Assembly (NCBI GenBank): GCA_963669155.1
Contig: OZ022596.1
Span: forward strand, 3,373,304 to 3,437,303
DNA: 64,000 nt
Reading direction: 5' to 3'
Source: Arbacia lixula
Taxonomy: Eukaryota; Echinodermata; Echinoidea; Arbacioida; Arbaciidae
The notes beneath the pieces are model-generated. The model was not told the DNA's origin. It saw only the letters and a list, made by a program, of their open reading frames with translations, and did no database searches. The position numbers were made by a program, and so were the translations under genes. This document shows positions 12,722-55,690 of this stretch, piece after piece; position 1 is the first letter of the stretch, and every line of letters starts with the position of its first letter.

Positions 12722-15700
12722 ATGGCGAGCATCACATGCAGCCCGGACAGCCTAGTGGTCACCAGTGGATCAAGAGTAAAAGTTCTACCCTTCAGGTAAT
12801 TGGAGATCTAGGTCATACATTTAAGGGATAGTTCACCCTGAAGAAGAGTATGTTCAAAAAAAAGCAGAAACATGACAGAAATATGTATTACAGAAGGTTT
12901 GACGGAAATCGATCAAAGGAAAAGAAAGTTATTAGATTTTGAAATTTCAATTTTGTGACGTCACATGCGAGGTGATTGTTTTTTCATACAGGTATGTGTA
13001 AAAAATATATTTCTGATGATGCATCAAATGCACAGGTTAAAGGATATATATCTTTTTGAGAAATGCATATTATAAAAAAAGTGTACTCAACATATGGGAG
13101 AGCACCTCACACGTGACGTCAAAAAATTAAAACTTTAACAGATCATAGCTTCCTTATCGTTTGACAGATTTTCTTCAAACCTCCGCTGATATGTATCTTG
13201 TTTCTGTTTTTATTGAAACCAACTTAAAACCAACTCAGGGTGAACTACATGTATTCCTTTAAACTGTTTGTTCGAGATAGGCTGCAAAGCCTTTTGAAGA
13301 TTATTACAGGAGAAGAAGAAGAATGAGACGAAGAAGAAGAAGAAGAAGAAGAAGAAGAAGAAGAAGAAGAAGAAGAAGAAGAAGAAGAAGAAGAAGAAGA
13401 AGAAGAAGAAGAAGAAGAAGAAGAAGGAGAAGGAGAAGGAGAAGGAGAAGGAGAAGGAGAAGGAGAAGGAGAAGGAGAAGGAGAAGGAGAAGGAGAAGGA
13501 GAAGGAGAAGGAGAAGGAGAAGGAGGAGAAGAAGAAGAAGAAGAAGAAGAAGAAGAAGAAGAAGAAGAAGAAGAGGAAGAGGGGGAGGAGATTGGATCTC
13601 AAGTCTAGACCCTTTTTTATGTTATGATTGATATCAATCACAATTCAAGTTTTGATCAATCGCAAATCTTTATAAGACCTGGCCCAGGTTTACTTGTGGT
13701 ACATGTAAAAAAGCGATAGATGACAAGACATTTCCAGGCTTTATTGAACAGAAGCATCATCTACAATATCTTTATTTTGGTGGAAAATGAGTTTTTAGTT
13801 CCTCATTTATCTTTTCCATTGTGGATGTGTTGGGTTTGAATGATTATGATTCATGTTGTGTCTTTCGTTCATAGTGATCCATCGACTTGCATCGAATATG
13901 AGCTGAAAGCAGAACCAGTGAAGAAGGAATTGCAGGAGAGAACGAAGGGCGGACAAACGAGAGACACTAAGAAGGTGGAGGAAGATAAAGCTCCTGGCAT
14001 GTGAGATAAAAAGAATTTTAGACTTTTTAGACTGTTTTTAAAAGTTTCCTAACCCGGTACTGAGCCCACATATTTGTGGGCTGGCATTTTTCCACTCAGA
14101 TACAGAGCAGTGTGACTCCAGTGTAATCTGATGTATAGATAATAGATGATCCGCCCAAAACTTCTGATTCTCGCAACCTATAATTCTGCAGTCAATTTCC
14201 GATTCTATGTGTAGTATTATTGGGAGGAAAGCTCTCAAAAATCTCTCTTTCATTTTCCAAAGTTTTCACAAAATTTGATGTTCTTTTTTACCTGCAAAAG
14301 GGACTTGCTCTATTATACTCTATACGTCTATATTTTTGCGTTTACAGATATTTTCACGAATGAAGGGGCTGCAGGCATATTTGCGGGTTGTTTGATAAAT
14401 GACACCCAGCTCTGTACTGCTCCCACGCCCACTATGATATTCACACGCAAATGTGAGAAAACAAACTGTACTTGCACATGTTATTGCAATGCTAGATTGT
14501 GTGCGGCATGGCATGCTATGCAAGCTAGCAAGCTATCGTGCCAGCACCCCATCATGAGATCGATAGCATACGATGTGTGTGCGCATTTGTGTGTGGTGCA
14601 TGCACGTAACGAAAATAAATCCTTGCGAAAATAACAGCTTATACAATAACTCATTCTTTTCCACAGAGATCCCCATGTACCGACTGGCCGGATCCTAGCG
14701 GCTACTTTCTCTACGAGCGGGGCTTACTTTGCAGCCAGCACAGATGAAAAGGACCTAGTCTTGTGGTCAACCCAGCCCGAGTGGACAAAGAAATGGACCA
14801 AGTGTGTATATTTGCAATTTGTAATTTATTGTTTCCACAGCTCATGTACACTATAGCTCAAAGGAATTGGCATAGGGAAAGGGAAAGGGAAGAATTGGAA
14901 GGAGCCGCAGTTTTCAACCGCGGTATATTTTGTCCAGTTCAGCATGAAACATGATGCTTTAGCCTAAAAAGCATCGTGTTTCATGCTGAACTGGACAAAA
15001 TAAACCACAGTTTAGCACCGTCTCACACAGTGCCGTGACAGTGTAGAATTCAGTCATGAGTTTGTCCACTTCTCCATTCGAAATATCTTCAAAATTTATG
15101 TGTTTCACCTTTGCAAAGCGCTTTAATGTAATTAATGAGTATTCGATGCTTTGAGTTGAATTTGTACTTACTGAAAGCATCTGAATCGTCCAAAATTTGT
15201 TTCAATTCTTCATCTAACTTTATCAGAGTTTCGTGAGATTCGTGGGTGCCGACATTAGCGTAAACAACATTGGTATCGATCATATCAATTCTCGGTATCG
15301 TGATATCGTGCTGATATCGTGTTGATATCGCGTGCTGCCAGTAAGAAAAAATTACACGGTAATTACGGGTAATTAACCAATCAGATTGCAGAGATTCTGA
15401 CACCCATTCTATAATAATTTATGACAGACCACCAAACGATTATCCTTTCCTCTCTCTCTCTCTCATCTTGTTTATAAAGGTCAGTGACGAAGCGTTGCAT
15501 GGCCCTAACCTTTGGCTTGGCAGAGACTGCCCTCTTTGTTGCGGACAAGGCAGGCGACGTCTACCAGTTTGATGTGCAGGATGACAGCAAAGAGGGCGCT
15601 GTTATTCTAGGACATGTCTCAATGCTGCTGGATGTGGTATGTGACATATGTTGTTTTATTTTGACTATTTTAGCCATTATCATGTTGTACATTTTTAACA

Positions 15701-18029
15701 AAAATTAGATTGCTAGTGATAATCGTATGACTCGCAATGTGTGGTCAACAAGGGATCTAAGATCACAACGTCTCGTGCGCCACTGTAACACTTCATCAGG
15801 TGTGATACAAACATATTTAGCAAAGAATAGAATAAATTTCTTGAGTTTCTTCTTTATGACAGGATAAAAGCTGTGAAATCTGAGAGCCTCGTGCTAGGCT
15901 GTGAGATGCATAGACACAACCTAATCTTTTAACAACTATGTCTGGTAACACAGAGCTATGCCCTAATCCCATCCTCCTCATGAGAGAGGAAGGAGCCATA
16001 GGAGCTATGATGTAATTAGGGCATAGTCTGTGTTACCAGACACAGCTGTTTTAACAGACTGGGTTTTGTCCATGCATCTCACAGCCTAGAAGGAGCCACT
16101 AACACAAATCTTCTTGATTGGTCAATCACCCGTGAGTGCCGGCCAATGGGCTTTGTCCTTTGTCCTTTGTCGGTAACATGTTACTGCCCGACGATGCGAG
16201 CTGTACCAGCAGCCTATTATTTGGTCGAGCATCTGGGTGCACTGCCCAATAGTATTGGGCTTCGTCCTTTAACCGTTTAGAAGCGGGTTCTCGGTTAGTG
16301 CGCTGCACCGACCAAATGGTATTTAAACCCCTACTCACTACAATTTTGTATCTCACCTTGCGAATTGTTGCAGCGGCGCACAAATCTTTTTTTATTCCTT
16401 CTTGACCGTACATTATGAGACAAACGATTATCACAAGCAACACATCTTCTTGTCTATAATTCTATCTCTTTCTCTCTCTCTCACTCCCTTTCTCTCTCTC
16501 TCTCTCTCTCTCTCACATACACTCTCTCTCTCACTCTTGTAATACTCACTCAGTATGTCCCAGGCAGAATGTGTGTATGTTGTATACATTACGAAGATGA
16601 CTAACTCGTATCTTCCCATCTCTCTCTCACACTCTCTTTCTCTATCTGTCCGTCTGTCTGTCTCTCTGTCTCTCTTTCTTTCTTTCTCTTTCTTTCTCTG
16701 TCTGTCTGTCTCTCTCTTCTCATTCTTGTAATACTCACTCAGTATGTCCCAGACAGAATGTGTGTAGGTTGTATGCATTCGGAAGATGACTAACTTGTAT
16801 CTTCTCATCTCTAATTCTCTCTCTCTCTCCCTCCCTCTCACTCTCTCTCTTCCTCTGTTTCACACACACTCTCTCTTTCTAGTAATACTCAGTATGTAAT
16901 AGGAAGAATGCGCTTTTTACTAGGATTTGATTAGTGCAAAAATGGGAAGATGGCATACAAAGAGTTGATTTCATTCAATGAAAGTTTTGAATTTTCCTAT
17001 GGTATGAATTTGTTGGCTCTTGCCATTTTGTTCTTTTTTTTTTGCTCATTTTCTCTCTATTATCTGTTTTCCTCAGTATAGTTTCTTAATCATTTCTACT
17101 CCTGTTCTTATCATAATTCCTTCAATCACAGCATAGATTTTTTAAATAATGAAAAAGAAAAGGTTTAATACATGTAACTCCTTATACGCAATCATCAATA
17201 GGATATGATTTATGTTATCCAGGTTTTTTCTGGCATGTCTGGCAATATCCTTTTCTAAATCATTCTAGCCCCTGTTATGTATTACGTGTTAAGTGAAGAT
17301 TTGTGGATGAATTGTTAAAGAGGCTAACTTAAGAACGCATGACTCCGGTTCGACTCCTGGAGTGGGTAGGGTCATTCCATTATACCTTTTGCATTGTGAT
17401 TTTTGCCTCCTCCTATTCTTTACCTTACTATGTCCTTCTCTTTGATATTCTCTTTACCATTTTTCTTCTCTTGAACCTTTTTTTTTTTTGTTAGCACAAA
17501 CATGTAGCAGGCAAGTCTCTGAAATGCTTGTATGTGGCGCATTTGTCAGCTGTGTCCTTGCATGAATTTGCCTTGACAGACCACCTCATATTTGTACACA
17601 AGTATTTTTTGTTTGTTTTGTTTTCTTCAGGCGGTGTCGGCTGATGACAAGTTCGTCCTGACAGCAGAAAGAGATGAAAAGATACGAGTTAGTCATCTTC
17701 CGAATGCATACAACATACACACATTCTGCCTGGGACATACTGAGTGAGTATTACTAGAAAGAAAGAGATCGGTAGAGAGAGAGAGAGAGAATTGTTGATG
17801 AGAAGATATGAGTTGGTCATCTTCCTAATGCATACAACATTCACACATTCTGTATGAGTGAGTATTACTAGAGTGAGAGAGAGAGACAGATAGACAGATA
17901 AAGACAGAGAGAGTATGAGAGAGAGATAGAGGCAGAGAGAGAGAGAGAGAGAGAGTGTGTGTGTGTGAGAGAGAGAGACATAAAGAGAGAGAGAGAGAGA
18001 GAGAGAGTGTGTGTGTGAGAGAGACATAA

Positions 18030-18062
<33 letters not shown>

Positions 18063-18126
18063 GACAGACAGAGAAAGAAAGAGAGAGTATGAGAGATAGA
18101 TAGAGGCAGAGAGAGAGAGAGAGAGA

Positions 18127-18160
<34 letters not shown>

Positions 18161-18163
18161 CGT

Positions 18164-18196
<33 letters not shown>

Positions 18197-18551
18197 GAGT
18201 GTGAGAGAGAGAGATGAGAAGATACGAGTTAGTCATCTTCCTAATGCATACAACATACACACATTCTGCCTGGGACATACTGAGTGAGTATTGCAAGAGT
18301 GAGGAGAGAGAGACAGACAGAGAAAGAAAGAGAGAGAGAAAGAAAGAGAGAGTGTTTCAGTCAAATAAAATAAAATATTCATGAACAGAATTTTGACTTG
18401 ACACCAATGATATTGAAGAAACAAATTTTTTAATGTCGCTCTGAAAAAATATGATACCTGTAAAGAATGTTCACTTCTGGCCAAAATAAATTAGCCACCT
18501 CCTGTAAAAGGGTTCTTCGTGTGTATTCTTTAAGAGAGACAGAGAGAGAGG

Positions 18552-18607
<56 letters not shown>

Positions 18608-21600
18608 GAAAGAGAGATGAGAAGATACGAGTTAGTCATCTTCCTAATGTATACAACATACACACATTCTGCCTGGGACATACTGTACTGAGTGACTATT
18701 TATATGTTTTGGAGCAAAAGGTTTAGGTACGAGTGTATGCTGTGTGTGAGCGCGAAGCGATAGAGAAAGAGAAAGCTAGAAAGTGTCAGACATATAAAAT
18801 CAGTTATCATCGGTGGGCTTTGGTGGAGAGAAAGAAAAAATACCATAAAGAGAGAGAGAGAGTGGAAAAGAGGAAGAGCGAATAGAAGGTGATGGTGATC
18901 TTTTTAATGTAACACACACAACATCTACCCCGCTATGTATTGAGAAAGGTTAGAAGATATAAATTGGTCATCTCGTTACTACTGTGTACTGTCGTGGGTG
19001 TGGGGAACAAGCGAACGATTGGTGTTTGCCACTTGAGCCAAACCAAAACAAACAAGTACACAAAACAGCAAAGCCAGATTTAAGCTGATTCATTAATTAC
19101 CTTTACTTCTAATTCTTTTTTTGCTACAGATTTGTCAACAGGCTTGCTGTTCTACCAAATACAGATGTTCTCTTGTCTACTGCCGGAGTAAGTAATGATA
19201 TTTACTTTTCATTTACATTTACTTAATTTCAGGAAGAAGAAGAGGAAGAAGAAATACTCACACAAGCACATGTTGCAGGGGAGACTACTGTTCTGCCCTA
19301 CTCTGACAAAAGGAAGCAAATGACAAATCACTCAAATCTGTGTTATTGGTATACTTAGATTGTACCCAGCATTCCCTACATACAGCCAAAATCTGGACGA
19401 GAAATATTCATCTTGCCATGAGATATTAAATCTAACATGATGTGGTTTTGCACTGATGCCAATGCAAGTGAAAGACACAATTAGCTAATTTACAAGAAAA
19501 GTCTCTTTTTGTTAGTTGCTTCCTTTTGTCAGAGTAGGGCTGTGTTGTTGTGCCTAGTTTGTTTTTTGGCTGCTGTCATTTCTTCCACTGCCTCTTACTT
19601 ACTGAGTGATGAAATGGTGATGAAGGAAATGGAGGAGCAGACGTGAGAGAAGGGCAAAGAGGGAAGAAAGAAAGAAGCGCTGAAAGTATTCATTCATTTA
19701 TTCATTATCTTTATAGTCCTCAATGGATATTCATTCATTCATTATCTGTATTGTCCTCAATGGAAATTCATTCATTAATTATCTGCATTGTCCTCAATGG
19801 AAATTCACTCTGTTGGCATTACAAATATGTACATACATTATTTACATAAATTATACTGCAAAATAAAAAATCAATTATGAGAGTATAAACATCATATTCA
19901 TAACAATGTCATAACAAAAAGAAATACGGAAGATAATGGCAAACACCTTGGTCCGTAATGATTTATGCAACATTAAGACAATACACACTCTGCGATATGC
20001 AATCAACAAATGAAAAATGTGGAACAAAAATTTTCAATCTCTACATACATGTACATGCAATATTAAAGACAGGGTGTCCTCCTGCAGGTCAAAAAAATGG
20101 AGGAAATAAAGAAAGATCAATGAAGATGGAAATGGAAAATAAGAATAGGATTGATCCGAGATAAGGGGATGAAAAGAAAGAATTAGAAATGGAAAACACA
20201 CATTAAATCATGTTGAAAACAAGTTTGATGTGCTTTTGATTGCAATACTTGTAATTGGATCAAGATGTAGTCCCTCATTAACCATGTGTATGCTAGATGA
20301 AAACGGCGCTCTAAAAGATTTCTGTAGATTCATTGTGAATAAATGTAGAAGTGCAACTTAGAGAGTTATGTGGCATCTCATTTTTTGTCATTCCAGGACA
20401 CCACAATAAGGCTGTGGGACTACAGAAAAGGAACAGAGCTCTGCCACGTATCGTACCTCTGTGACCAACCCTCGTCAGAATCCACCAACAAACATGACGC
20501 AACCGTTACCTGCCTTTCCTGCTCAAAACAACACAGCCTGGTTGCCATGGCAATTCTAGAGTAAGTATAAGCAAGATTGCACCTGGTTGCAACCTTATTT
20601 ATTACAAATGAAACATGTAAAACAGTTGTACGAAACAAAATGGCCAGATGATATCAAAAGTGAAAAGTTTCCTACACAAGCAGTGATAAAGAATGTCAAT
20701 GTTAGGGTAGTCAATCATTTCCAAATTTCAAACAAATTACATGAAAAGAAAGAGCATTAAGTTTTTGGAACTTTTTAGCATATTATTTTAAGGAAAAATT
20801 ATAGCCATTGAGATACGACACATTGTCTTCAGAACAGGGCCTGTTGCATAAAACTTACCATTGATGGTAACTCTGCCATCAATGGTAACTGCCATGGTTA
20901 CATTGCCGGACAGCCTATGAAATTCAAGGTTTCCATAGAAATTGCAATTGGTATCAAAATTACATTCAATGATAAGTTTTATGCAACAGGGCCCAGGTGA
21001 AAACTGCCCCCTTCCAAGTAAATGCCGTAGAGGGGTGTTCGCTAGTTCGCTCAGCGAACGCAAAACGCAAAACTTACATAAACCTCACTCCACAAAAACA
21101 ATAAAATTTCATATTTAGATTTATTCTTTTGGTCTAAAATAACAACACATGATACATTAAACTAAAATGAATCTCATAAGATAAAAATCCAAAAACAAGA
21201 TTTGTTTTTGTTTCATGAGTGAATTGTCAATTTTCTCGGTTTGAGCAAGTGCTACTTGTCTCTCATCTTGGGCTGTCAGATCTCATATGCCGTAGAGGAG
21301 TGTATGGCCTGCCGTATGAAGATTTAATGCGCATAATGTTATTCTCATTCCAGCCATTGCAGTGTGCTCGTCTTCCATGTCGCAGAGAAGGAAGGGAGGT
21401 GGACCATTGAGGAGGTTGCTAGGCTACAGTGTAAACACCCCCCATGGTCTGTGACCTTTGACCCTAAGGGTCAGCTGTTTGTTCTTGTCCCTGACCCAGA
21501 CAAGCCTCTACTTGTTTACAGAGTGCTCCAAGGCGAGGAGCAAGTATTTCAGGTAAGATATATCATGTTCAAATCATGTTTTATTATGCATATGACTAGG

Positions 21601-24600
21601 ACCACGTGAAATAAAAATCTTAATAATGACGTGACGTCCTAAACTCATTTTGTATTGAAACTTATAATTAACCATTATCTGTTTGACTAGGATGGTCTGC
21701 ATCTCCCTGTATGTGCAATAACATTTAATGGAATACAGTGAATGTTAATTATGATAGCTTTTTGTGGGGTATGAATTGCTTTTCACTTGTCTGTATTGTA
21801 CCATTTTCTTGCTTTTTGTGCATGGACACAACCCAGTATGTTAAAAACTATGTCTGTTAACGCGTACAGACTGTGCCCTATTCCCATCCTCGCTGTGGAA
21901 GCCAGAGGAGCTATGACGTCATTAGGCCATAGTCTGTGTTACCAGACATAGTTGTTGACAGACTGGGTCATGTCCATGCACCTCATAGCCCAGTACCTAG
22001 GCTACCACTGTGAAGAATTGGTGCATATTACTGGTAAAGAATTATGATCACAGAACACAGAGAGTTACTGTCTCTCAAAAGAAATTTGTTGAATTAAAAA
22101 TTCCTCTGCTGGTGTAAAATGCTTTGTTTGTTTCCCCCCCTTCCTCTCAAAACGCACAATTATTTTTAGATTGTGGAAGATATGTCAACAGAGGGCGGTA
22201 CAGCTATCTTGGCACAGCAAGTCCAGAAGGACTGGGAGTTCTTGAAATGTGAGTACAGTCGTTAAGGACCATGCATTGAAACACGTTTCAAAATGTGTGT
22301 TGCAGATGCTCGTTTCGAAACGCTGGTTCTAACTTAATACAGTGGCTAAGTAGTTTGAGGTATTGGTAGGTTAGCTAGCTGAAGTAAAAATGCCTTAATG
22401 TGATCTGAATGTGACTTTTGGCATTTGACTTACCCAAGCCAAATGCTAAGTAGCTTTTGTACTGACCTCAAGTATTTTATGGTATACCAGCCCTAATTCA
22501 ATCTATTTCTTTGCTCACATGTTCATGCGATGTTCCCTTCCACAACATGCCTGAATATCTTCCTGTCTTTCTTTCATGTGTCTGCTTTTATTGAAAGCAA
22601 CATAATGTTAGGCTGAAGCATCCCTTTAAGCTTCTCCAAACTCCTGATTCCATCCATACATGTAGGTTCATGTGACATGCCCAGTCCATTCCGTGGCCTT
22701 CACAAGATGCCCATCGACAACATGCCAGAATATCTTCCTTTCTTTCTTTCATGTGTCTGCTTTTATTGAAACCAACTGTTTCTTTGCTTATACATGTAGG
22801 TTCATGTGACGTTCCCAGTCCATTCCGTGGCCTTCACAAGGTGCCCTTCGACAACATGCCCAAATATCCTTCTTTCTTTCTTTTATGTGTCTGCTTTTAT
22901 CGACACTAACTGTTTCTTTGCTCATACATGTAGGTTCATGCGACGTTCCCAGTCCGTTCCGTGGCCTCCACAAGACGCTCTTCGACAGCATGTCTGAATA
23001 TCTTCCTTTCTTTTATGCGTCTGCTTTTATTGAAACCAACTGTTTCTTTGCTCATACATGTAGGTTCATGTGACGTGCCCAGTCCTTTCCATGGCCTTCA
23101 CAACATGCCCGTCAACAACATGCCCGAAAATCTTTCTTTCTTTCTTTTATGTGTCTGCTTTTATTGAAACCAACTGTTTCTTTGCTCATACATGTAGGTT
23201 CATGCGACGTGCCCAGTCCATTCCGTGGCCTTCACAAGGTGCCCGTCAACAACATGCCCGAATATCTTTCTTTCTTTCTTTTATGTGTCTGCTTTTATTG
23301 AAAGCAACTGTTTCTTTGCTCATACATGTAGGTTCATGCGACGTGCCCAGTCCTTTTCGTGGCCTTCACAAGGTGCCCTTCGACAAGATGCCCGATTATC
23401 TTTCTTTCTTTCTTTCATGTGTCTGCTTTTATTGAAACCAACTGTTTCTTTGCTCATACATGTAGGTTCATGCGACGTGCCCAGTCCTTTTCGTGGCCTT
23501 CACAAGGTGCCCTTCGACAACATGCCCGAATATCTTTCTTTCTTTCTTTCTTGTGTCTGATTTTATTGACACCAACTGTTTCTTTGCTAATACATGTAGG
23601 TTCATGCGACGCTCCTAGTCCTTTCCGGGGCCTCCACAAGATGCCCTTCGACAACATGCCCGAATATCTTTCTTTCTTTCTTTCATGTGTCTGCTTTTAT
23701 TGAAACCAACTGTTTCTTTGCTCATACATGTAGGTTCATGCGACGTTCCCAGTCCTTTCGTGGCCTTCACAAGGTGCCCTTCGACAACATGCCCGAATAT
23801 CTTTCTTTCTTTCTTTCTTGTGTCTGATTTTATTGACACCAACTGTTTCTTTGCAATACATGTAGGTTCATGCGACGTTCCCAGTCCTTTCCGTGGCCTT
23901 CACAAGATGCCCTTCGACAACATGCCCGAATATCTTTCTTTCTTTCTTCCTTGTGGCTGCTTTTATTGAAACCAACTTTTTCTTTGCTCATACATGTAGG
24001 TTCATGCGACGTTCCCAGTCCTTTCCGTGGCCTTCACAAGATGCCCTTCGACAACATGCCCGATTATCTTTCTTTTTTTCTTTCTTGTGTCTGCTTTTAT
24101 TGAAACCAACTGTTTCTTTGCTCATACATGTAGGTTCATGCGACGTTCCCAGTCCATTCCGTGGCCTTCACAAGGTGCCCTTCGACAACATGCCCAAATA
24201 TGTTTTTTTCTTTCTTTCTTGTGTCTGCTTTTATTGAAACCAACTGTTTCTTTGCTCATACATGTAGGTTCATGCGACGTTCTCAGTCCTTTCCGTGGCC
24301 TTCACAAGGTGCCCTTTGACAACATGCCCGATTATCTTTCTTTTTTTCTTTCTTGTGTCTGCTTTTATTGAAACCAACTGTTTCTTTGCTCATACATGTA
24401 GGTTCATGCGATGTTCCCAGTCCTTTCCGTGGCCTTCACAAGGTGCCCTTCGACAACATGCCTGAATATCTTCCTTTGTTTCTTTCATGTGTCTGCTTTT
24501 ATTGAAAGCAACATAATGTTAGGGTGAACTATCCCTTTAAGCTACTCCAAACTCCTGATTCCATCCATACATGTAGGTTCATATGACATGCCCAGTCCAT

Positions 24601-27600
24601 TCCCGGCCTTCACAACATGCCCCAATATCTTTCTTTCTTTCTTGTGTCTGCTTTTATTGAAACCAACTGTTTCTTTGCTCATACATGTAGGCTCATGCGA
24701 CGTTCCCAGTCTTTTGCGTGGCCTTCACAAGATGCCCTTCGACAACATGTCCGAATATCTTTCTTTCTTGTGTCTGCTTTTATTGAAACAAACTGTTTCT
24801 TTGCTCATATATGTAGGTTCATGCGATGTGCCCAGTCCATTCCGTGGCCTTGACAAGGTGCCCTTCGACAACATGCCCGAATATCTTTCTTTCTTTCTTT
24901 CTTTCTTTCTTGTGTCTGCTTTTATTGAAACCAACTGTTTCTTTGCTCATACATGTAGGTTCATGCAACGTTCCCAGTCCATTCCGTGGCCTTCACAAGG
25001 TGCCCTTCAACAGCATGCCCGAATATCTTTCTTTGTTTTATGTGTCTGCTTTTATTGAAACCAACTGTTTCTTTGCTCATACATGTAGGTTCATGCGACG
25101 TGCCCAGTCCATTCCGTGGCCTTCACAAGGTGCCCGTCAACAACATGCCCGAATATCTTTCTTTCTTTCTTTTATGTGTCTGCTTTTATTGAAAGCAACT
25201 GTTTCTTTGCTCATACATGTAGGTTCATGCGACGTGCCCAGTCCTTTTCGTGGCCTTCACAAGGTGCCCTTCGACAAGATGCCCGATTATCTTTCTTTCT
25301 TTCTTTCATGTGTCTGCTTTTATTGAAACCAACTGTTTCTTTGCTCATACATGTAGGTTCATGCGACGTGCCCAGTCCTTTTCGTGGCCTTCACAAGGTG
25401 CCCTTCGACAACATGCCCGAATATCTTTCTTTCTTTCTTTCTTGTGTCTGATTTTATTGACACCAACTGTTTCTTTGCTAATACATGTAGGTTCATGCGA
25501 CGCTCCTAGTCCTTTCCGGGGCCTCCACAAGATGCCCTTCGACAACATGCCCGAATATCTTTCTTTCTTTCTTTCATGTGTCTGCTTTTATTGAAACCAA
25601 CTGTTTCTTTGCTCATACATGTAGGTTCATGCGACGTTCCCAGTCCTTTCGTGGCCTTCACAAGGTGCCCTTCGACAACATGCCCGAATATCTTTCTTTC
25701 TTTCTTTCTTGTGTCTGATTTTATTGACACCAACTGTTTCTTTGCAATACATGTAGGTTCATGCGACGTTCCCAGTCCTTTCCGTGGCCTTCACAAGATG
25801 CCCTTCGACAACATGCCCGAATATCTTTCTTTCTTTCTTCCTTGTGGCTGCTTTTATTGAAACCAACTTTTTCTTTGCTCATACATGTAGGTTCATGCGA
25901 CGTTCCCAGTCCTTTCCGTGGCCTTCACAAGATGCCCTTCGACAACATGCCCGAATATCTTTCTTTCTTTCTTCCTTGTGGCTGCTTTTATTGAAACCAA
26001 CTGTTTCTTTGCTCATACATGTAGGTTCATGCGACGTTCCCAGTCCTTTCCGTGGCCTTCACAAGGTGCCCTTCGACAACATGCCCAAATATCCTTCTTT
26101 CTTTCTTTTATGTGTCTGCTTTTATCGACACTAACTGTTTCTTTGCTCATACATGTAGGTTCATGCGACGTTCCCAGTCCGTTCCGTGGCCTCCACAAGA
26201 CGCTCTTCGACAGCATGTCTGAATATCTTCCTTTCTTTTATGCGTCTGCTTTTATTGAAACCAACTGTTTCTTTGCTCATACATGTAGGTTCATGTGACG
26301 TGCCCAGTCCTTTCCATGGCCTTCACAACATGCCCGTCAACAACATGCCCGAAAATCTTTCTTTCTTTCTTTTATGTGTCTGCTTTTATTGAAACCAACT
26401 GTTTCTTTGCTCATACATGTAGGTTCATGCGACGTGCCCAGTCCATTCCGTGGCCTTCACAAGGTGCCCGTCAACAACATGCCCGAATATCTTTCTTTCT
26501 TTCTTTTATGTGTCTGCTTTTATTGAAAGCAACTGTTTCTTTGCTCATACATGTAGGTTCATGCGACGTGCCCAGTCCTTTTCGTGGCCTTCACAAGGTG
26601 CCCTTCGACAAGATGCCCGATTATCTTTCTTTCTTTCTTTCATGTGTCTGCTTTTATTGAAACCAACTGTTTCTTTGCTCATACATGTAGGTTCATGCGA
26701 CGTGCCCAGTCCTTTTCGTGGCCTTCACAAGGTGCCCTTCGACAACATGCCCGAATATCTTTCTTTCTTTCTTTCTTGTGTCTGATTTTATTGACACCAA
26801 CTGTTTCTTTGCTAATACATGTAGGTTCATGCGACGCTCCTAGTCCTTTCCGGGGCCTCCACAAGATGCCCTTCGACAACATGCCCGAATATCTTTCTTT
26901 CTTTCTTTCATGTGTCTGCTTTTATTGAAACCAACTGTTTCTTTGCTCATACATGTAGGTTCATGCGACGTTCCCAGTCCTTTCGTGGCCTTCACAAGGT
27001 GCCCTTCGACAACATGCCCGAATATCTTTCTTTCTTTCTTTCTTGTGTCTGATTTTATTGACACCAACTGTTTCTTTGCAATACATGTAGGTTCATGCGA
27101 CGTTCCCAGTCCTTTCCGTGGCCTTCACAAGATGCCCTTCGACAACATGCCCGAATATCTTTCTTTCTTTCTTCCTTGTGGCTGCTTTTATTGAAACCAA
27201 CTTTTTCTTTGCTCATACATGTAGGTTCATGCGACGTTCCCAGTCCTTTCCGTGGCCTTCACAAGATGCCCTTCGACAACATGCCCGATTATCTTTCTTT
27301 TTTTCTTTCTTGTGTCTGCTTTTATTGAAACCAACTGTTTCTTTGCTCATACATGTAGGTTCATGCGACGTTCCCAGTCCATTCCGTGGCCTTCACAAGG
27401 TGCCCTTCGACAACATGCCCAAATATGTTTTTTTCTTTCTTTCTTGTGTCTGCTTTTATTGAAACCAACTGTTTCTTTGCTCATACATGTAGGTTCATGC
27501 GACGTTCTCAGTCCTTTCCGTGGCCTTCACAAGGTGCCCTTTGACAACATGCCCGATTATCTTTCTTTTTTTCTTTCTTGTGTCTGCTTTTATTGAAACC

Positions 27601-30090
27601 AACTGTTTCTTTGCTCATACATGTAGGTTCATGCGATGTTCCCAGTCCTTTCCGTGGCCTTCACAAGGTGCCCTTCGACAACATGCCTGAATATCTTCCT
27701 TTGTTTCTTTCATGTGTCTGCTTTTATTGAAAGCAACATAATGTTAGGGTGAACTATCCCTTTAAGCTACTCCAAACTCCTGATTCCATCCATACATGTA
27801 GGTTCATATGACATGCCCAGTCCATTCCCGGCCTTCACAACATGCCCCAATATCTTTCTTTCTTTCTTGTGTCTGCTTTTATTGAAACCAACTGTTTCTT
27901 TGCTCATACATGTAGGCTCATGCGACGTTCCCAGTCTTTTGCGTGGCCTTCACAAGATGCCCTTCGACAACATGTCCGAATATCTTTCTTTCTTGTGTCT
28001 GCTTTTATTGAAACAAACTGTTTCTTTGCTCATATATGTAGGTTCATGCGATGTGCCCAGTCCATTCCGTGGCCTTGACAAGGTGCCCTTCGACAACATG
28101 CCCGAATATCTTTCTTTCTTTCTTTCTTTCTTTCTTGTGTCTGCTTTTATTGAAACCAACTGTTTCTTTGCTCATACATGTAGGTTCATGCAACGTTCCC
28201 AGTCCATTCCGTGGCCTTCACAAGGTGCCCTTCAACAGCATGCCCGAATATCTTTCTTTGTTTTATGTGTCTGCTTTTATTGAAACCAACTGTTTCTTTG
28301 CTCATACATGTAGGTTCATGCGACGTGCCCAGTCCATTCCGTGGCCTTCACAAGGTGCCCGTCAACAACATGCCCGAATATCTTTCTTTCTTTCTTTTAT
28401 GTGTCTGCTTTTATTGAAAGCAACTGTTTCTTTGCTCATACATGTAGGTTCATGCGACGTGCCCAGTCCTTTTCGTGGCCTTCACAAGGTGCCCTTCGAC
28501 AAGATGCCCGATTATCTTTCTTTCTTTCTTTCATGTGTCTGCTTTTATTGAAACCAACTGTTTCTTTGCTCATACATGTAGGTTCATGCGACGTGCCCAG
28601 TCCTTTTCGTGGCCTTCACAAGGTGCCCTTCCACAACATGCCCGAATATCTTTCTTTCTTTCTTTCTTGTGTCTGATTTTATTGACACCAACTGTTTCTT
28701 TGCTAATACATGTAGGTTCATGCGACGCTCCTAGTCCTTTCCGGGGCCTCCACAAGATGCCCTTCGACAACATGCCCGAATATCTTTCTTTCTTTCTTTC
28801 ATGTGTCTGCTTTTATTGAAACCAACTGTTTCTTTGCTCATACATGTAGGTTCATGCGACGTTCCCAGTCCTTTCGTGGCCTTCACAAGGTGCCCTTCGA
28901 CAACATGCCCGAATATCTTTCTTTCTTTCTTTCTTGTGTCTGATTTTATTGACACCAACTGTTTCTTTGCAATACATGTAGGTTCATGCGACGTTCCCAG
29001 TCCTTTCCGTGGCCTTCACAAGATGCCCTTCGACAACATGCCCGAATATCTTTCTTTCTTTCTTCCTTGTGGCTGCTTTTATTGAAACCAACTTTTTCTT
29101 TGCTCATACATGTAGGTTCATGCGACGTTCCCAGTCCTTTCCGTGGCCTTCACAAGATGCCCTTCGACAACATGCCCGAATATCTTTCTTTCTTTCTTCC
29201 TTGTGGCTGCTTTTATTGAAACCAACTGTTTCTTTGCTCATACATGTAGGTTCATGCGACGTTCCCAGTCCTTTCCGTGGCCTTCACAAGGTGCCCTTCG
29301 ACAACATGCTGGAATATCTTTCTTTCTTTCTTTCTTGTGTCTGCTTTTATTAAAACCAACTGTTTCTTTGCTCATACATGTAGGTTCATGCGACGTTCCC
29401 AGTCCTTTCCGTGGCCTTCACAAGGTGCCCTTCGACAACATGCCCGAATATCTTTCTTTCTTTCTTTCTTGTGTCTGCTTTTATTAAAACCAACTGTTTC
29501 TTTGCTCATACATGTAGGTTCATGCGACGTTCCCAGTCCTTTCCGTGGCCTTCACAAGGTGCCCTTCGACAACATGCTGGAATATCTTTCTTTCTTTCTT
29601 TCTTGTGTCTGCTTTTATTAAAACCAACTGTTTCTTTGCTCATACATGTAGGTTCATGCGACGTTCCCAGTCCTTTCCGTGGCCTTCACAAGGTGCCCTT
29701 CGACAACATGCCCGAATATCTTTCTTTCTTTCTTTCTTGTGTCTGCTTTTATTAAAACCAACTGTTTCTTTGCTCATACATGTAGGTTCATGCGACGTTC
29801 CCAGTCCTTTCCGCGGCCTCCACAAGGTGCCCTTCGACAACATGCCCGATTATCTACGCAGGAAACAGGAGAGGATGGAGAGCGTGCAATCGAAGAAGGG
29901 GAGAAGGAGGAACGTTTGGAGACAGAAGGGAAAGAAGAGATCTAGTCCGGATGATGCTGAGGACGGAGAAGACGCTAAGAGGACTTTGCACGATGATAAC
30001 GAGGAAGGGGAGGAGGAAGAAGATCGAGATATGGAGGAAGAGCAGGAGAAGGAGAACGGGAAGACGGAAGCGAGCATGGAAGTTCAGTGA
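12722..30090 (+). CDS. WDR4: WDR4, non-catalytic WD40 subunit of tRNA (guanine-N7) methyltransferase, 10 coding exons
   Basis: Coding exons: 12722-12795, 13875-14000, 14667-14801, 15480-15636, 17631-17743, 19130-19187, 20397-20560, 21354-21552, 22170-22248, 29786-30090. They total 1,410 nt (469 aa), and phase agrees at all nine GT-AG junctions. The protein starts [15 protein letters not shown]-type blocks include TDEKDLVLW (exon 3), DKAGDVYQF (exon 4), the family hallmark [24 protein letters not shown] (exons 5-6) and [12 protein letters not shown] (exon 7). After the propeller comes [15 protein letters not shown], matching the WDR4 C-terminal helix, then a lysine/arginine-rich and Glu/Asp-rich tail longer than the human one. 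By family knowledge WDR4 (yeast Trm82) holds METTL1 (Trm8) for m7G46 methylation of tRNA. Odd: intron 9 is 7.5 kb, nearly all an array of copies of its own 3' splice site and exon-10 start. Intron 1 holds a foldback element and a GAA tract. The identification is firm; which exon-10 acceptor is used in vivo is inferred from the ORF. Confidence 0.95.
12821..13263. mobile_element. Foldback MITE with TTAA ends in WDR4 intron 1
   Basis: The left end is TTAAGGGATAGTTCACCCTG. The right end is the inverse, CAGGGTGAACT then ATTCCTTTAA. Inner inverted parts include GTGACGTCACATGCGAGG against CCTCACACGTGACGTC. TTAA at both ends suggests a piggyBac-type target duplication. The same terminal sequence (AGGGTGAACTATCCCTTTAA) occurs in units of the WDR4 array at about 22,605, 24,515 and 27,740. 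Confidence 0.8.
13318..13585 (+). repeat. (GAA)n / (GAAGGA)n purine tract in WDR4 intron 1
   Basis: About 265 bp of almost pure purine: GAA repeats, then GAAGGA repeats, then GAA again, with an AGGGGGAGGAG end. The reading frames give poly-Arg (+) or Phe/Ser-rich (-) products that are not genes. Confidence 0.97.
14848..15010. mobile_element. Foldback MITE (CTATAGCTCAAAGGAATTGG family) in WDR4 intron 3
   Basis: Begins CACTATAGCTCAAAGGAATT. The core GTTCAGCATGAAACATGATGC is mirrored by its inverse around 14,965-15,000. The right outer arm is missing. A full copy is at 43,746-43,938. Confidence 0.8.
15893..16090. mobile_element. Foldback MITE (TGGTAACACAGACTATGCCCTAAT family) in WDR4 intron 4
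   Basis: CTAGGCTGTGAGATGCAT at the left is mirrored by ATGCATCTCACAGCCTAG at the right. Inner arms contain CTATGTCTGGTAACACAGA and its inverse. A related copy is at 21,819-21,985. Confidence 0.85.
16531..18700. repeat. Copies of the WDR4 exon-5 3' end plus donor, in both orientations, set in GA/CT microsatellite
   Basis: The parent is exon 5 around 17,676-17,755 (encoding [20 protein letters not shown] plus donor GTGAGTATTAC). Direct copies lie at about 17,799-17,880, 18,213-18,304 and 18,617-18,700. Inverted copies lie at about 16,531-16,625 and 16,719-16,812, with a fragment near 16,880-16,915. The copies keep about 80 bp including TGAGTGAGTATT. (GA)n, (GT)n and (GACA)n or their complements fill the gaps. 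Confidence 0.9.
20837..20994. mobile_element. 158-bp foldback MITE (CCTGTTGCATAAAACTTACC family) in WDR4 intron 7
   Basis: GGGCCTGTTGCATAAAACTT at the left and AAGTTTTATGCAACAGGGCCC at the right, with repeated TACCATTGATGGTAA palindromes inside. A second copy is at 36,243-36,400. Confidence 0.88.
21819..21985. mobile_element. Foldback MITE, second copy, in WDR4 intron 8
   Basis: TGCATGGACACAACCCAGT at the left and ACTGGGTCATGTCCATGCA at the right, with inner AACTATGTCTG and CAGACATAGTTG arms. It is the same family as 15,893-16,090. Confidence 0.8.
22515..29862 (+). repeat. ~134-bp minisatellite made of WDR4 intron-9 end, 3' splice site and exon-10 start
   Basis: About 54 units each contain a pyrimidine-rich stretch, the acceptor ACATGTAG, about 60 bases encoding [19 protein letters not shown] and MPEYL, then CTTTCTTTC runs and TGTCTGCTTTTATTGAAACC. 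The last unit (acceptor at 29,785) runs into the true exon 10. The most upstream unit (about 22,517) is decayed. Acceptors recur at about 22,664, 22,793, 22,927 and so on to 29,780, mostly 133-135 bp apart. Since 134 is not a multiple of 3, the frame rotates between units and gives many spurious overlapping ORFs. Entry from exon 9 into any upstream acceptor would read the same first ~25 residues, then [11 protein letters not shown] and stop. Confidence 0.95.
22830..29280 (+). repeat. Higher-order duplication (3,225 bp; internal 1,891/1,334 bp) within the WDR4 array
   Basis: Blocks in the array recur nearly identically at +3,225 bp (24,588 and 27,813; 22,961 and 26,186; 23,070 and 26,295). Part of the block also recurs at +1,891 and then +1,334 (23,225; 25,116; 26,450; 28,341). 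Comparing translations I saw only a single substitution between some 3.2-kb copies (a Phe-Asp-Asn versus Phe-His-Asn codon near 28,631). This implies very recent unequal exchange, or an assembly artefact. Confidence 0.85.
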
Positions 30091-31440
30091 CTGATGCTTG
30101 GAAGGTGAAGGTGTGAATGAAAGAAGAGGAGGAAGAGGAAGAGTTGAAGGAGGAGAAATGGAAAAGAAAGGCTAAGTAAATGATGCTTGGAATTGTTATG
30201 GATAATGGAAGGAAGGATGGAAGGAATGAGATGTAAAGAATAGTTGAAGGAGAAAGAGAATAGGAAGAGAGATGCAAGCATGGGAGTTCAGTAACTGATG
30301 CTTGGAAGGTGAATGAATGAAGAAAGAGGAGGAAAGAAAAAGACAAACTTAGTGACTGATGATTGGGAGGTCATAAGAAAGACTGAATGAAGGAATGAGA
30401 TTTAACAAATAAGAAGACAGATGGAAGCATGGACGTTTGGTGACTGATGCTTGAAAGGTGAAGGAATGAATGAATGAAGGAAGGAAAGAAGAGAAGGAAA
30501 GAAAAACGCACGATAAGTGATCGATGCTTGGAAGGTCATAAGGAAAACCAAATTAAGGAATGAGATATAAAGAATAGTGAAGGAGGAGGAGAATAGGAAG
30601 AGAGATGCAAGTAAGGAAGGTCAGTGACTGATGTGTGGAAGTTGTTATGGAAAATGGAAGGAGGGAAGGAAGGAATGAATGAAGAAGGATGAGGAAGAGT
30701 AAAATGGGAATAAAAGGAAAAGGCAGGTTTAGTGTTAGATGCTTGGAAGTTGATAAGGAAAATGAGGGGAGGTACATGTAAGGAATAAATGCAGAAAGAA
30801 GAACAGGAAGAAGAGTTGAAAGAGAAGAAAAGGAAGAGGAAGGCTAAGTGACTGATGCTTTGAAGTTGATACGAATAACGAAAGGAAGGAATGAAGGGAG
30901 AACTAAAGGAAAAGGGGAGGAGGATAGGAACTGATATACAAACATGGAAGTTCAGTGGTTGGAAGTTGAAAAGAAAAGGGACGGGGAGGAAGAGGAGGAG
31001 GAGGGAATGAAGGGCAGAGGAGTAGCAGAGCTGCCAAGTAATTACTGATTTTCAGTAATTCATACAGAAATGTGTGAAGAATACTGAATGTTTCATGCAA
31101 AATACTGATTTCATTTGTTCTAGTTCATGGGTTGTTCTATTGTCTTTATTTGAAAATACAGATTTCCATCAAAATACTGATTTTCAGCCTTAACTCTTAA
31201 TCTGCCGCTGTCACATTTTTGCGACTAACGGGTAACGTGCCGCTGTCGCAAATTTGCGACCAAACTGGAATAGAGAAAACCTCTGGCACAGAGGGGTTTT
31301 ACCCCCGGCAAGTTAAGAGTTACGAGTACTGAAATGTTTTGATTAAGGTTGGCAGCCCTGGAGTATGGGGTAGGGGAAGGAGATGAGGAGGATGGGAAGA
31401 AAGATACAAGCATGACAGTTGAGTGACTGATGCTTGGAAT
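30060..31440 (+). repeat. Degenerate repeats of the WDR4 stop-codon region in its 3' flank
   Basis: The coding end GGAAGTTCAGTGACTGATGC (30,079-30,098) recurs in variants such as AGTGACTGATGCTTGGAAGG near 30,290, 30,349, 30,440, 30,515, 30,620, 30,735, 30,846, 30,950 and 31,420. The copies are often preceded by GCAAGCATGG-like sequence, which is the codons before the stop. The intervals are GGAAGGAATGAA-type purine tracts. This may be the 3' UTR and downstream flank; I saw no confident polyadenylation site. Confidence 0.75.
31026..31360. mobile_element. hAT-like MITE
   Basis: Ends CAGAGCTGCCAAGTAATTAC and TTGGCAGCCCTG are the typical hAT CAGxGxTGCCAA inverted termini. The interior repeats TACTGATTTTCAG. 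It interrupts the purine-rich WDR4 3' flank. Confidence 0.65.
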
Positions 31441-35699: not shown

Positions 35700-38600
35700 A
35701 AGGAATAAACTCTGGTTGGTTGATGTAGTCATTAAAACAGAGCAGATACATTTCCACATCTCATTCTTTGTTTTCCTATGGCATCTTTGAACAACATAAC
35801 AATCATCATTTATCCAGTTTTTGGTTTATTATCATGCCAATTGACAATATAACCGATGTCTGTGATCTTCTGAATGATGTAGTTGTTTGAACAAAGAAGA
35901 TCCACTTCCACCCCTACCTCATTGTTTTTCTATGGTGCCTTTCAATGGTATAACCATCATCATTTAACCATTTTTTGTTTCTTCAACGATTAAACTACAA
36001 TCCTCACTTAAATGGTCGATGTAGTCATTGAAACAAAGAAATTACCTCAGTGCCTAACTACATGTATCAGCATTTATCCAGTTGTTTTTTTTGTCTTCAA
36101 CAATGAAACTGTAGTCTTTGCTTTTATAGCCAACGTAGTCATTTAAACAAAGAAAAAACTTCCACCTCCAACTACATCGTTTAACCAGTTTTTGCTCCTT
36201 TACTGTTCCTATCGACTATAAAACTGTTCTCTTTGCTGCTCTGGGCCCTGTTGCATAAAATTTACTATTGATGGTAACTTTGCGACCAATAGCAATTTCT
36301 ATGGAAACCTTGAATTTGATTAGCTGTTGAGTGATGTTACCATGGGAGTGACTACTGATGGCAGAGTTACCATTGATGGTAAGTTTTATGCAACAGGGTC
36401 GTGGTCAATGTATTCATCAAAACAAAGAATGTCCATAGCCATATTTAGTCCATTGTTTAATTTACAATTCCACTAAACTAAGCAATGATCATCATTTATC
36501 CAGTCTTTGCTTCTTGATGGTGCCTTTCGACAAGATAACGTCGGTCTCTGCTCTTGTGGCCAATGTAGTCGTTGAATTAACGATGGGCGTTGTAATGGTT
36601 ATTGTCACTAAGCAACAGTCATCGTTTATCCAGTTTTTGCTCCTTGATCGTGCCTATTGACAAGATAACGTCGGTCTCTGCTCTTGTGGCCAATATAGTC
36701 ATTGAACCTACAGAGGGCGCTGTGATGGTTGTTGTCACTAAGCAACAATCATTATTTGTCCAGTATTTGGTTCTTGATTGTGCCTATTGACAAGATAACG
36801 TCGGTCTCTGTTCTTGTGGCCAATATAGTCATTGAACCTACAGAGGGCACTGTGATGGTTGTTGTCACTAAGCAACGATCATCATTTGTCCAGTTTTTGC
36901 TTCTTGATCGTGCCTATTGACAAGATAACGTCAGTCTCTGCTCTTGTGGCCAATATAGTCATTGAACCTACAGAGGGCGTTGTGATGGTTGTTGTCACTA
37001 AGCAACAATCATCAATCGTCCAGTTTTATCGTATTGATAGTGCCTATTGATGAAATAACGGTGGTCTTTGGTCTTGTCGCCAATGTAGTCGTTGAATCAT
37101 CGATGTGCGCTGTGATGTTTATTGTGACTAAGCAACAATCATCATTTGTCCAGTTTTTGCTTCTTGATAGTGCCTATTGATGAAATAACGGTGGTCTTTG
37201 GTCTTGTCGCCAATGTAGTCATTGAACCAACAATGGGCGTTGTGATGGTTGTTGCAACTATTAAAGGAACAATCATCATTTTTCCAGTTTTTGCTTCTTG
37301 ATCGTGCCTATCGATGATATAACAGTGGTCTTTGGTCTCGTGGCCGATGTTGTTGTTGAACCTACAGAGGGCGCTGTGATGGTTGTTGTCACTAAGCAAC
37401 AATCATCATTTATCCAGTTTTTGCTTCTTGATCGTGCCTATCGATGATATAACAGTGGTCTTTGGTCTCGTGGCCGATGTAGTTGTTGAACCTACAGAGG
37501 GCGCTGTGATGGTTGTTGTCACTAAGCAACAATCATCATTTATCCAGTTTTTGCTTCTTGATCGTGCCTATCCATGAAATTACGATGGTCTTTGGTCTTG
37601 TGGCCAATGTAGTCGTTCAATCATTGATGGGCGTTATGATGGTTGTTGCAACAATTAAAGCAAAGATCATCATTTATCCAGTTTTTGCTTCTTGATCGTG
37701 CCTATCGAAGATATAACAGTGGTCTTTGGTCTCGTGGCCAATATAGTCATTGAACCTACAGAGGGCGCTGTGATGGTTGTTGTCACTAAGCAACAATCAT
37801 CATTTATCCAGTTTTTGCTTCTTAATCGTGCCTATCGATGATATAACAGTGGTCTTTGGTCTCGTGGCCGATGTAGTCGTTGAATCATAGATGGGCGCTA
37901 TGATGGTTGTTGGGACTAAGCAACGATCATCATTTGTCCAGTTTTTGCTTCTTGATGGTGCCTATTGACAAGATAACGTCGGTCTCTGCTCTTGTGGCCA
38001 ATGTTGTCATTGAACCTACAGAGGGCGCTGTGATGGTTGTTGTCACTAAGCAACAATCATCATTTATCCAGTTTTTGCTTATTGATAGTGCCTATTGATG
38101 AAATAACGGTGGCCTTTGGTCTTGTCGCCAATGTAGTCATTGAACCAACGATGGGTGCTGTGATGTTGATTGTGACTAAGCAACGATCATCATTTATCCA
38201 GTTTTTGCTTCTTGATCGTGCCTATCGAAGATATAACAGTGGTCTTTGGTCTCGTGGCCGATGTAGTTGTTGAACCAACAATGGGCGTTGTGATGGTTGT
38301 TGCTACTATTAAAGGAACGATCATCATTTATCCAGTTTTTGCCTCTTGATCGTGCCTATTGATGATATAACAGTGGTCTATGCTCTCATGGCCAATGTAG
38401 TCATTGAACCAACAATGGGCGTTGTGATGGTTGTTGCAACTATTAAAGGAAAGATCATCATTTATCCAGTTTTTGCTTCTTGATCGTGCCTATCGAAGAT
38501 ATAACAGTGGTCTTCGGTCTCGTGGCCGATGTTGTTGTTGAACCAACAATGGGCGTTGTGATGGTTGTTGCAACTATTGAAGGAACGATCATCATTTATC

Positions 38601-38709
38601 CAGTTTTTGCTTCTTGATCGTGCCTATCGAAGATATAACAGTGGTCTTTGGTCTTGTGGCCGATGTTGTTGTTGAACCTACAGAGGGCGCTGTGATGGTT
38701 GTTGAGACG
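35700..38709 (-). repeat. ~130-bp array of the SAP30BP terminal coding segment
   Basis: Read on the minus strand, about 17 clear units (36,480-38,709) each encode TTITAPSVGSTTTSATRPK and KTTVISSIGTIKKQKLDK-stop, with substitutions. The unit nearest the gene is the real end of exon 7. About four decayed units extend to about 35,700, interrupted by a foldback element at 36,243-36,400. Decay rises with distance from the gene. Many units have a potential acceptor just upstream of the coding part: TTGCTTAG before TGACAACAACC, or CCTTTAATAG before TTGCAACAACC. Both would join exon 6 in the SAP30BP frame. Confidence 0.93.
36243..36400. mobile_element. Foldback MITE (CCTGTTGCATAAAACTTACC family) inside the decayed SAP30BP array
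   Basis: GGGCCCTGTTGCATAAAATT at the left and AAGTTTTATGCAACAGGGTC at the right. It separates the four decayed distal units from the fresh ones, so it inserted after the distal units existed. Confidence 0.88.
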
Positions 38710-54692: not shown

Positions 54693-55405
54693 CACAGTGT
54701 TGCCACAGTGTGTTCACATAGTTAACTATGTGTAAACTGTGTGTTAACTATGTGTTCACAGTGTTGTCACAGTGTGGCATTTCAGACCACATAGTTTACC
54801 ACATAATTACCCACATAGTTGGCATACCGAACACAGAGTGGCACACATATACCACAGTGTGGTATGTATTGAACTATGTGTAAACTGTGTGTTCATAGTG
54901 TTATCACAGTGTGGCATTTCAGACCACATAGTTTACCACATAATTACCCACATAGTCGGCATACCGAACACAGAGTGGCACACATATACCACAGTGTGGT
55001 ATGTATTGAACTATGTGTAAACTGTGTGTTCATAGTGTTGCCACAGTGTGGTATTTCAGTTTATGTGGTTTACCACATTCCCACATAGTTGGTATACCAA
55101 ACACAGTGTGGTATATTTTGAACTATGTGTATACCCTGTGTTCATAGTGTTGTCACATTGTGAGATTTCACATCATTCATTTACCACATCATCCCACAGA
55201 CTCTGCATACTGAACACACGGTGATTCATGCTCACCACAGTGTGGTATACGCTGAACTATGTGTATACCCTGTGTTCATAGTGTTGTCACACTGTGAGAT
55301 TTCACATCATTCATCTACCACATCATCCCACAGACTCCGCATACTGAACACAGTGATTCACGCTCACCACAGTGTGGTATATGCTGAACTATGTGTAAAC
55401 CCTGT
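54693..55405 (+). repeat. Left CACAGTGTGG-rich tandem array
   Basis: Tandem units start near 54,774, 54,911, 55,048, 55,161 and 55,293. Each holds CACAGTGTGG, TTTACCACAT, CACATAGTTGGCATACC and GAACTATGTGTAAACTGTG in order. The short ORFs here are by-products of the repeat. Confidence 0.85.
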
Positions 55406-55406
55406 G

Positions 55407-55690
55407 GCCGGTATTCTGAAGTCGGGTTTAAGCAAAGTTAAACCCGACTTCGGGTCTAAAATCCCGCCTAACTTTAAACCCGAAGTCGGGTTTAACGATT
55501 TGGTATTCTGAAGTCGGGTTTAAGCAAAGTTAGACCCGAAGTCGGGTCTAAGTCGAGTCTAACTTTAGACTCGAAGTCCGTTTTAACGATTTGGTATTCT
55601 GAAGTTGAGTTTAAGCAAAGTTAAACCCGAAGTCGGGTCTAAAGTCCCGCCTAACTTCAAGAAAAGTTAAACCCGAGCGAGGGGTAGTTT
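55407..55690 (+). repeat. Three ~91-bp palindrome-rich repeats upstream of the Harbinger gene
   Basis: GGTATTCTGAAGTCGGGTTT begins copies at 55,410, 55,502 and 55,592. Within each, AAGTCGGGTTTAA and TTAAACCCGACTT alternate as inverted motifs. They end 15-20 bp before the ATG at 55,705. They are plausible Harbinger terminal or transposase-binding repeats. I did not find the inverse at the 3' side. Confidence 0.7.

Follow-up and report, generated by a model that had tools for sequence, protein, structure and literature searches.

The window analysed here, a 64-kb stretch of echinoid DNA at C21:3373304-3437303, contains on its plus strand the WDR4 gene (12722-30090), whose 10 exons form a single open frame of 469 codons plus a stop and are separated by nine introns, all of the GT-AG type (9/9). 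The original prediction had named this gene as WDR4, and both the gene model and protein homology bear this out: the predicted protein matches human WDR4 (7u20_B) with an E-value of 3.3e-69, and the nearest named proteins among the matches listed are sea-urchin WDR4s, from Lytechinus (57% identity) and Diadema (54% and 52% identity), with two unnamed proteins in the same set at 59-60%. It was also right in calling the gene single-copy, since a genome-wide protein search (607 Mb, 590 contigs; 76 of 76 candidates scored) placed 54/54 WDR4 matches inside one locus. A neighbouring gene on the minus strand has a Pfam match to HCNGP (PF07818, E 6.4e-31), and we take it to be SAP30BP-like. Rfam and tRNA scans of the whole 64-kb window gave no matches. 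The exons of the two genes referred to below are as follows, those of WDR4 being taken from the one-frame GT-AG gene model.

12722..12795, plus strand: WDR4 exon 1, with the start codon (also by homology)
13875..14000, plus strand: WDR4 exon 2
14667..14801, plus strand: WDR4 exon 3
15480..15636, plus strand: WDR4 exon 4
17631..17743, plus strand: WDR4 exon 5
19130..19187, plus strand: WDR4 exon 6
20397..20560, plus strand: WDR4 exon 7
21354..21552, plus strand: WDR4 exon 8
22170..22248, plus strand: WDR4 exon 9, donor AAT/GTGAGT
29786..30090, plus strand: WDR4 exon 10 (true), through the stop codon; non-repeat part 78% purine
38592..38800, minus strand: last coding exon of the SAP30BP-like gene (ends counted by hand)
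39915..40094, minus strand: penultimate exon of the SAP30BP-like gene (PF07818, E 6.4e-31)

Most of WDR4 intron 9, between the end of exon 9 (22248) and the start of exon 10 (29786), is occupied by a single tandem array, which is far beyond chance. Tandem Repeats Finder places it at 22655-29855, with a period of 134, 53.6 copies and 89% matches, while a count anchored on the acceptors gives 54 units, with first exonic bases from 22666 to 29786 and an intact AG in 54/54. The units are usually 134 bp long (114-175 bp individually). In each, a pyrimidine tract and ACATGTAG are followed by ~68 nt from the head of exon 10, and these by a TTTC tract and a fragment of a dispersed repeat. The true exon 10 begins with unit 54; the 53 units upstream of it are decoys. 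The original prediction is upheld on each of these points, namely a tandem array of about 54 units at the exon 10 acceptor, a unit that spans the intron 9/exon 10 boundary, and a true exon 10 that forms the last unit; its start of the array at 22515 is fair, given a decayed copy at about 22507-22654.

22507..22654, plus strand: decayed first copy of the unit, lacking the TAG of the acceptor and some of the exon-like segment (by eye; ends approximate)
22655..29785, plus strand: 53 decoy units, each with an acceptor, the exon-10 head and a CU-rich tract (Tandem Repeats Finder; acceptor anchoring; unit typing)
22934..26158, plus strand: 24-unit higher-order block, copy 1 (unit typing)
26159..29383, plus strand: 24-unit higher-order block, copy 2, with 11 differences in 3,225 bp (unit typing)

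Within the decayed first unit, the sequence at 22507-22530 reads ACAT/GTTCATG, as expected after the loss of one GTAG-to-GTAG unit; slippage between two GT steps accounts for it equally well.

The 53 decoys fall into 23 distinct sequence types, which follow one another as ABCDEFGHIJKLMNOPQREFGHIJSTCDEFGHIJKLMNOPQREFUHIJSVWVW. The array thus contains nested duplications, a six-unit run that recurs 14 units further on in addition to the 24-unit lag, and both the higher-order block and the order of the units can be read as the product of unequal exchange within a minisatellite. The true exon 10 differs from every decoy at 3 or more positions over 66 nt. A genome search with the unit gave 93 matches, 54 of them at the WDR4 locus and the other 39 limited to query bases 85-132; this part of the unit is a dispersed repeat. 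The exon-like half was matched at the WDR4 locus only (40 of 52 first-look candidates scored, very common words skipped), and the WDR4 segment repeated in the array is present as a single copy in the five closest homologues, all from other species (three named sea urchins, two unnamed proteins). The longer version of unit 14 has relatives in WDR4 intron 1, at 12820-12881 (76%) and 13196-13227 (84%).

In their core acceptor signals the decoys are indistinguishable from the true site, 42 of the 53 scoring at least as high as that of exon 10 with a general matrix that is not fitted to echinoderms. The presence of AG in 54/54 units says little, because the units are of few kinds (23). With 2 events, the acceptor core also varies less than any other 16-nt window of the unit, a possible hint of acceptor use, but a window this quiet is expected by chance 26% of the time and selection keeping the acceptors is not supported. 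The original prediction had every unit retaining both its acceptor and in-frame exon codons; this holds for the acceptor AG but not for the frame, which 47 decoys keep to residue 21 and six (units 9, 15, 23, 33, 39 and 47) do not. It also proposed that use of a decoy would truncate WDR4 before its C-terminal tail, an acidic segment present in the five closest aligned homologues. The truncation is confirmed by the decoy readings, as 53/53 reach a stop, 33 of them after adding 34 residues, but the 11-residue ending named for it is exact in 18/53 only, the shorter ending ...CFY being common to 45/53.

The exon-like codons of the decoys show no significant selective constraint. Of the 41 substitution events counted in the exon-like part across the 23 decoy types, 14 are synonymous and 27 non-synonymous. 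The synonymous share (34%) lies above the neutral expectation of 23.5% but not significantly so (p=0.14), and substitutions are denser in this part (0.60 per site) than in the 45 nt at the end of the intron tail (0.40 per site). Together with the six frame-shifted decoys, this makes productive use unlikely, and the decoys are not supported as productive coding exons.

The decoys and the true exon diverge in what follows the exon-like part. In the decoys this sequence has a mean of 24% purine and 0 GAR hexamers in all 53, whereas exon 10 beyond the repeat is 78% purine with 34 GAR hexamers (the same 12 hexamers counted in both), and UCUU occurs 3.9 times per decoy versus 0 in the rest of the true exon 10; the enhancer and PTB motif sets, like the splice-site matrices, are general ones, not fitted to echinoderms. 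The poly(A) signal AATAAA is absent from the array and first occurs after exon 10 at 30709 and 30784. Its weaker variant ATTAAA is found four times in the array (29349, 29483, 29617 and 29751, corresponding to units 50-53), so that the last decoys might in principle end transcripts, a point that weighs slightly against the skipping of all decoys. Apart from the GTAG of the next unit, no site in the decoy sequence reaches 6 bits as a donor.

The intron 9 array is accompanied by other copies of exon edges in the 64-kb window, which we sought by BLAST of the exons against it.

16525..16627, minus strand: inverted copy of the exon 5 3' end and donor, intron 4 (90% identity)
16713..16812, minus strand: inverted copy of the exon 5 3' end and donor, intron 4 (93% identity), with predicted pairing to the exon 5 end
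16869..16910, minus strand: short inverted fragment from the exon 5 donor region (46 columns, 80% identity)
17797..17882, plus strand: direct copy of the exon 5 3' end and donor, intron 5 (81% identity), donor TGAGTGAGT kept
18206..18298, plus strand: direct copy of the exon 5 3' end and donor, intron 5 (95% identity), donor kept
18602..18693, plus strand: direct copy of the exon 5 3' end, donor weakened (91% identity; no GT above 5 bits found)
30248..31439, plus strand: four old copies of the stop-codon region in the WDR4 3' flank (77-84% identity)
36477..38591, minus strand: about 16 copies of the SAP30BP-like last coding part and stop, downstream of the stop (16 non-self BLAST matches; Tandem Repeats Finder)
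39668..39840, minus strand: two copies of the 3' edge of the SAP30BP-like exon at 39915-40094 (93.5% and 87.5% identity; donor in both by eye)

Intron 5 thus contains three direct copies of the 3' end of WDR4 exon 5 with its donor, and intron 4 two inverted copies plus the inverted fragment of 46 columns. Between the end and donor of exon 5 and the nearer long inverted copy, an RNA duplex of ~100 bp is predicted (calculated without a shuffled control at that length); by burying the true donor, such a duplex could promote exon skipping, RNA editing or the formation of circular RNA. The copies of the WDR4 stop region lie at 30248-30321, 30413-30473, 30562-30644 and 31364-31439. In the SAP30BP-like gene, the stop-region array is a 130-bp repeat (36477-38704) whose exon copies past the stop would sit in the 3' UTR, and the donor-edge copies are found at 39668-39744 and 39785-39840. 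Every direct copy in the window sits on the outer flank of its exon and alters no codon, as expected if selection removes other placements. Further tandem repeats detected by Tandem Repeats Finder at 54692-55657 and 62369-63383 have periods that reach 137 bp, and motifs of the CACAGTGTG type are present in many of them.

Elsewhere in the genome, exon-edge copies were found at 4 of 106 distinct exon-match places, a rough figure for this one animal genome because the places came non-randomly from rankings of 132 kinase (30 + 20 taken), 150 WD40 (36 taken) and 60 chaperonin matches (20 taken) and some are exons of one gene or of paralogues. The flanks searched were ~0.4-1.5 kb, with length cut-offs of 30-35 nt; queries reached 60 nt beyond each match, and 30 WD40 loci were extended along the open frame. 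Edge copies were seen at none of 30 kinase matches (often within long open frames), one of 30 WD40 matches, two of 20 chaperonin matches, one of 20 shorter kinase matches and none of six further WD40 matches, L071 being the same exon as L063 (no copy) and counted once. The WD40 case (L066) is a coatomer-alpha-like exon, coatomer-alpha being its best PDB match after the WD-40 repeat protein 2ymu, and has 62-bp units with three decoy acceptors in an array (1266-1527) upstream of the exon. Older, decayed copies lie further upstream of this 62-bp array. A chaperonin theta-like (CCT-theta) exon has at least nine acceptor-bearing places including the true one, 60 bp apart, which run off the end of the sequence taken for this locus (L086:1-1151); a chaperonin zeta-like (CCT-zeta) exon (L075) has two donor copies, and a kinase exon (L092) has one donor-side copy at 80%. 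We set aside L024, where the copy is an inverted one of the whole match, and L060, L061, L084, L101 and L117, where the copies lie outside the matched stretch; that at L060 was read by eye as a palindromic element.

The WDR4 array, which the original prediction implied to be a one-off, belongs to a described class and recurs in kind at other exons of the same genome. By four structural features of its sequence, it is a very large minisatellite of the mirage type: its repeat unit spans an exon-intron boundary, the unit length is minisatellite-like (134 bp, compared to a published range given as 10-160 bp; PMC3087553), many units bear AG/GT splice signals (AG in all 54 anchored units, though not in the decayed extra copy), and a homogenised interior, with its higher-order block and shared unit types, is framed by divergent borders, the decayed first copy and the true exon. 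Mirage minisatellites have been described in the amphioxus genes Adh3, BflGb6 and BflGb9 (globins), TnC and PGBD5 (PMC3902484), where regular splicing is reportedly undisturbed (PMC3087553, PMC3902484). The WDR4 array differs from these in its echinoid host, in the derivation of part of its unit from a dispersed repeat and in its size, with 54 units and a 24-unit higher-order repeat compared to the 6 and 3 units given for haplotypes of BflGb6.

Other known systems resemble the WDR4 array in part. The VNTR in intron 18 of human ABCA7 is likewise an exon-edge tandem repeat whose unit opens with a splice signal, described at ~12-427 units, but it is the donor that is repeated there, in a 25-bp unit, and effects on splicing and expression have been shown (PMC5954066). 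In the account of potato RdRp, the intron tail and exon head were similarly duplicated with branch site, pyrimidine tract and AG, but a single duplication gave rise to a new spliced intron and exon with RNA-read support (PMC4974935). In WDR4, by contrast, there are 53 copies, and nothing points to a new exon. A minisatellite with many splice sites at an exon-intron boundary is also reported for human IFI6 (6-16), in that case with donors in 12-bp units. In the open-licence literature we found neither a report of a mirage in sea urchins nor another splice-acceptor VNTR array; what is new here, measured against that literature, is an echinoid mirage of 54 units with a 3.2-kb higher-order repeat.

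The reading we favour, with a probability of roughly 70%, is that this mirage-type minisatellite is passed over by the spliceosome, which would ignore its 53 decoys and join exon 9 to unit 54, marked as the right site by the purine-rich sequence of exon 10. The array may have arisen by a short tandem duplication of the intron 9 tail and the first ~68 nt of exon 10, followed by fusion of the duplicate, at a CU-rich stretch, with a portion of a dispersed repeat. The array would then have grown, presumably via slippage and unequal exchange, to ~18 unit types first and later through the repetition of a six-unit run and of a 24-unit block. Such copies would be tolerated on the outer side of exon 10, where no mRNA codon changes while the last acceptor is used. 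The decoys could be skipped because only unit 54 leads into a purine-rich, enhancer-like exon, and then to the AATAAA signals, while each decoy runs directly into a UCUU-rich, PTB-like tract without any of the counted enhancer hexamers. Exon definition through enhancers and the 3' end would be the simplest account of this choice. Occasional transcripts that use a decoy would encode a truncated WDR4, have a very long 3' UTR and presumably be lost.

The original prediction had offered three fates for the decoys, which the cell might skip altogether, use productively or remove in steps. Skipping of all 53 is the most likely and fits best, because the decoy codons show no significant constraint and the mirages of amphioxus reportedly leave splicing intact. 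It is unlikely that some transcripts end in a decoy, giving truncated or destroyed products, with copy number tuning WDR4 output. The kept frame in 47/53 decoys, the stop reached in all of them and the four ATTAAA motifs are compatible with such a role, as is the association of the length of the donor-containing ABCA7 VNTR with exon skipping and lower expression (PMC5954066), but the lack of significant codon constraint, the six shifted frames and the presence of the acidic tail, which decoy use would remove, in the five closest homologues argue against it. The array might also act as a chain of potential ~134-nt introns, cut singly or severally before exon 9 joins exon 10, since the acceptor ACATGTAG overlaps a donor-like CAT/GTAGGT. 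Its GT is rightly placed in 54/54 units and it scores 6.5 bits in 50 of them, more than four of the true WDR4 donors reach (nine donors, 5.4-11.0 bits, with a matrix not fitted to echinoderms), while outside the array plus-strand sites of at least 6.4 bits occur once per 636 bp. The motif, however, accompanies any copy of the acceptor and its frequency is no evidence of use, and we consider this stepwise removal quite improbable. Classic ratchet-type recursive splicing was rejected: a ratchet regenerates a usable donor directly after the acceptor, and the AAT/GTTCAT formed at the junction of exon 9 with a unit scores only -2.2 bits with the same matrix, the overlapping GTAGGT being a different arrangement. 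Similarly improbable is the strong form, in which a dual-use GTAG would allow the units to be removed one by one, intron 9 becoming a set of ~53 nested introns whose number tunes the output of full-length WDR4.

The true array could also be shorter than assembled, for example if two haplotypes had been joined, and the presence of the 3,225-bp block twice with 11 differences is what such an error might leave. The 23 distinct units with their duplications nested at 14 and 24 units speak against this, as do the arrays of the same kind at other loci of this genome and the fact that no second copy of the locus was found on another contig in the genome searches made, and an artefact is in our view very unlikely.

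If the spliceosome does pass the decoys as we propose, the WDR4 array would be a natural experiment on splice-site choice, with dozens of near-identical core acceptors of which presumably one works, and the mark of the right site would therefore lie outside the core signals. The WDR4 array is apparently one of many edge-copy cases in this genome; it places an echinoid beside amphioxus as a carrier of mirages, which appear not to be rare in this host. Exon-edge arrays of this kind may mislead gene predictors. If they are common in deuterostomes, the tandem copying of exon edges would provide a steady route to longer introns and the raw material for new ones.
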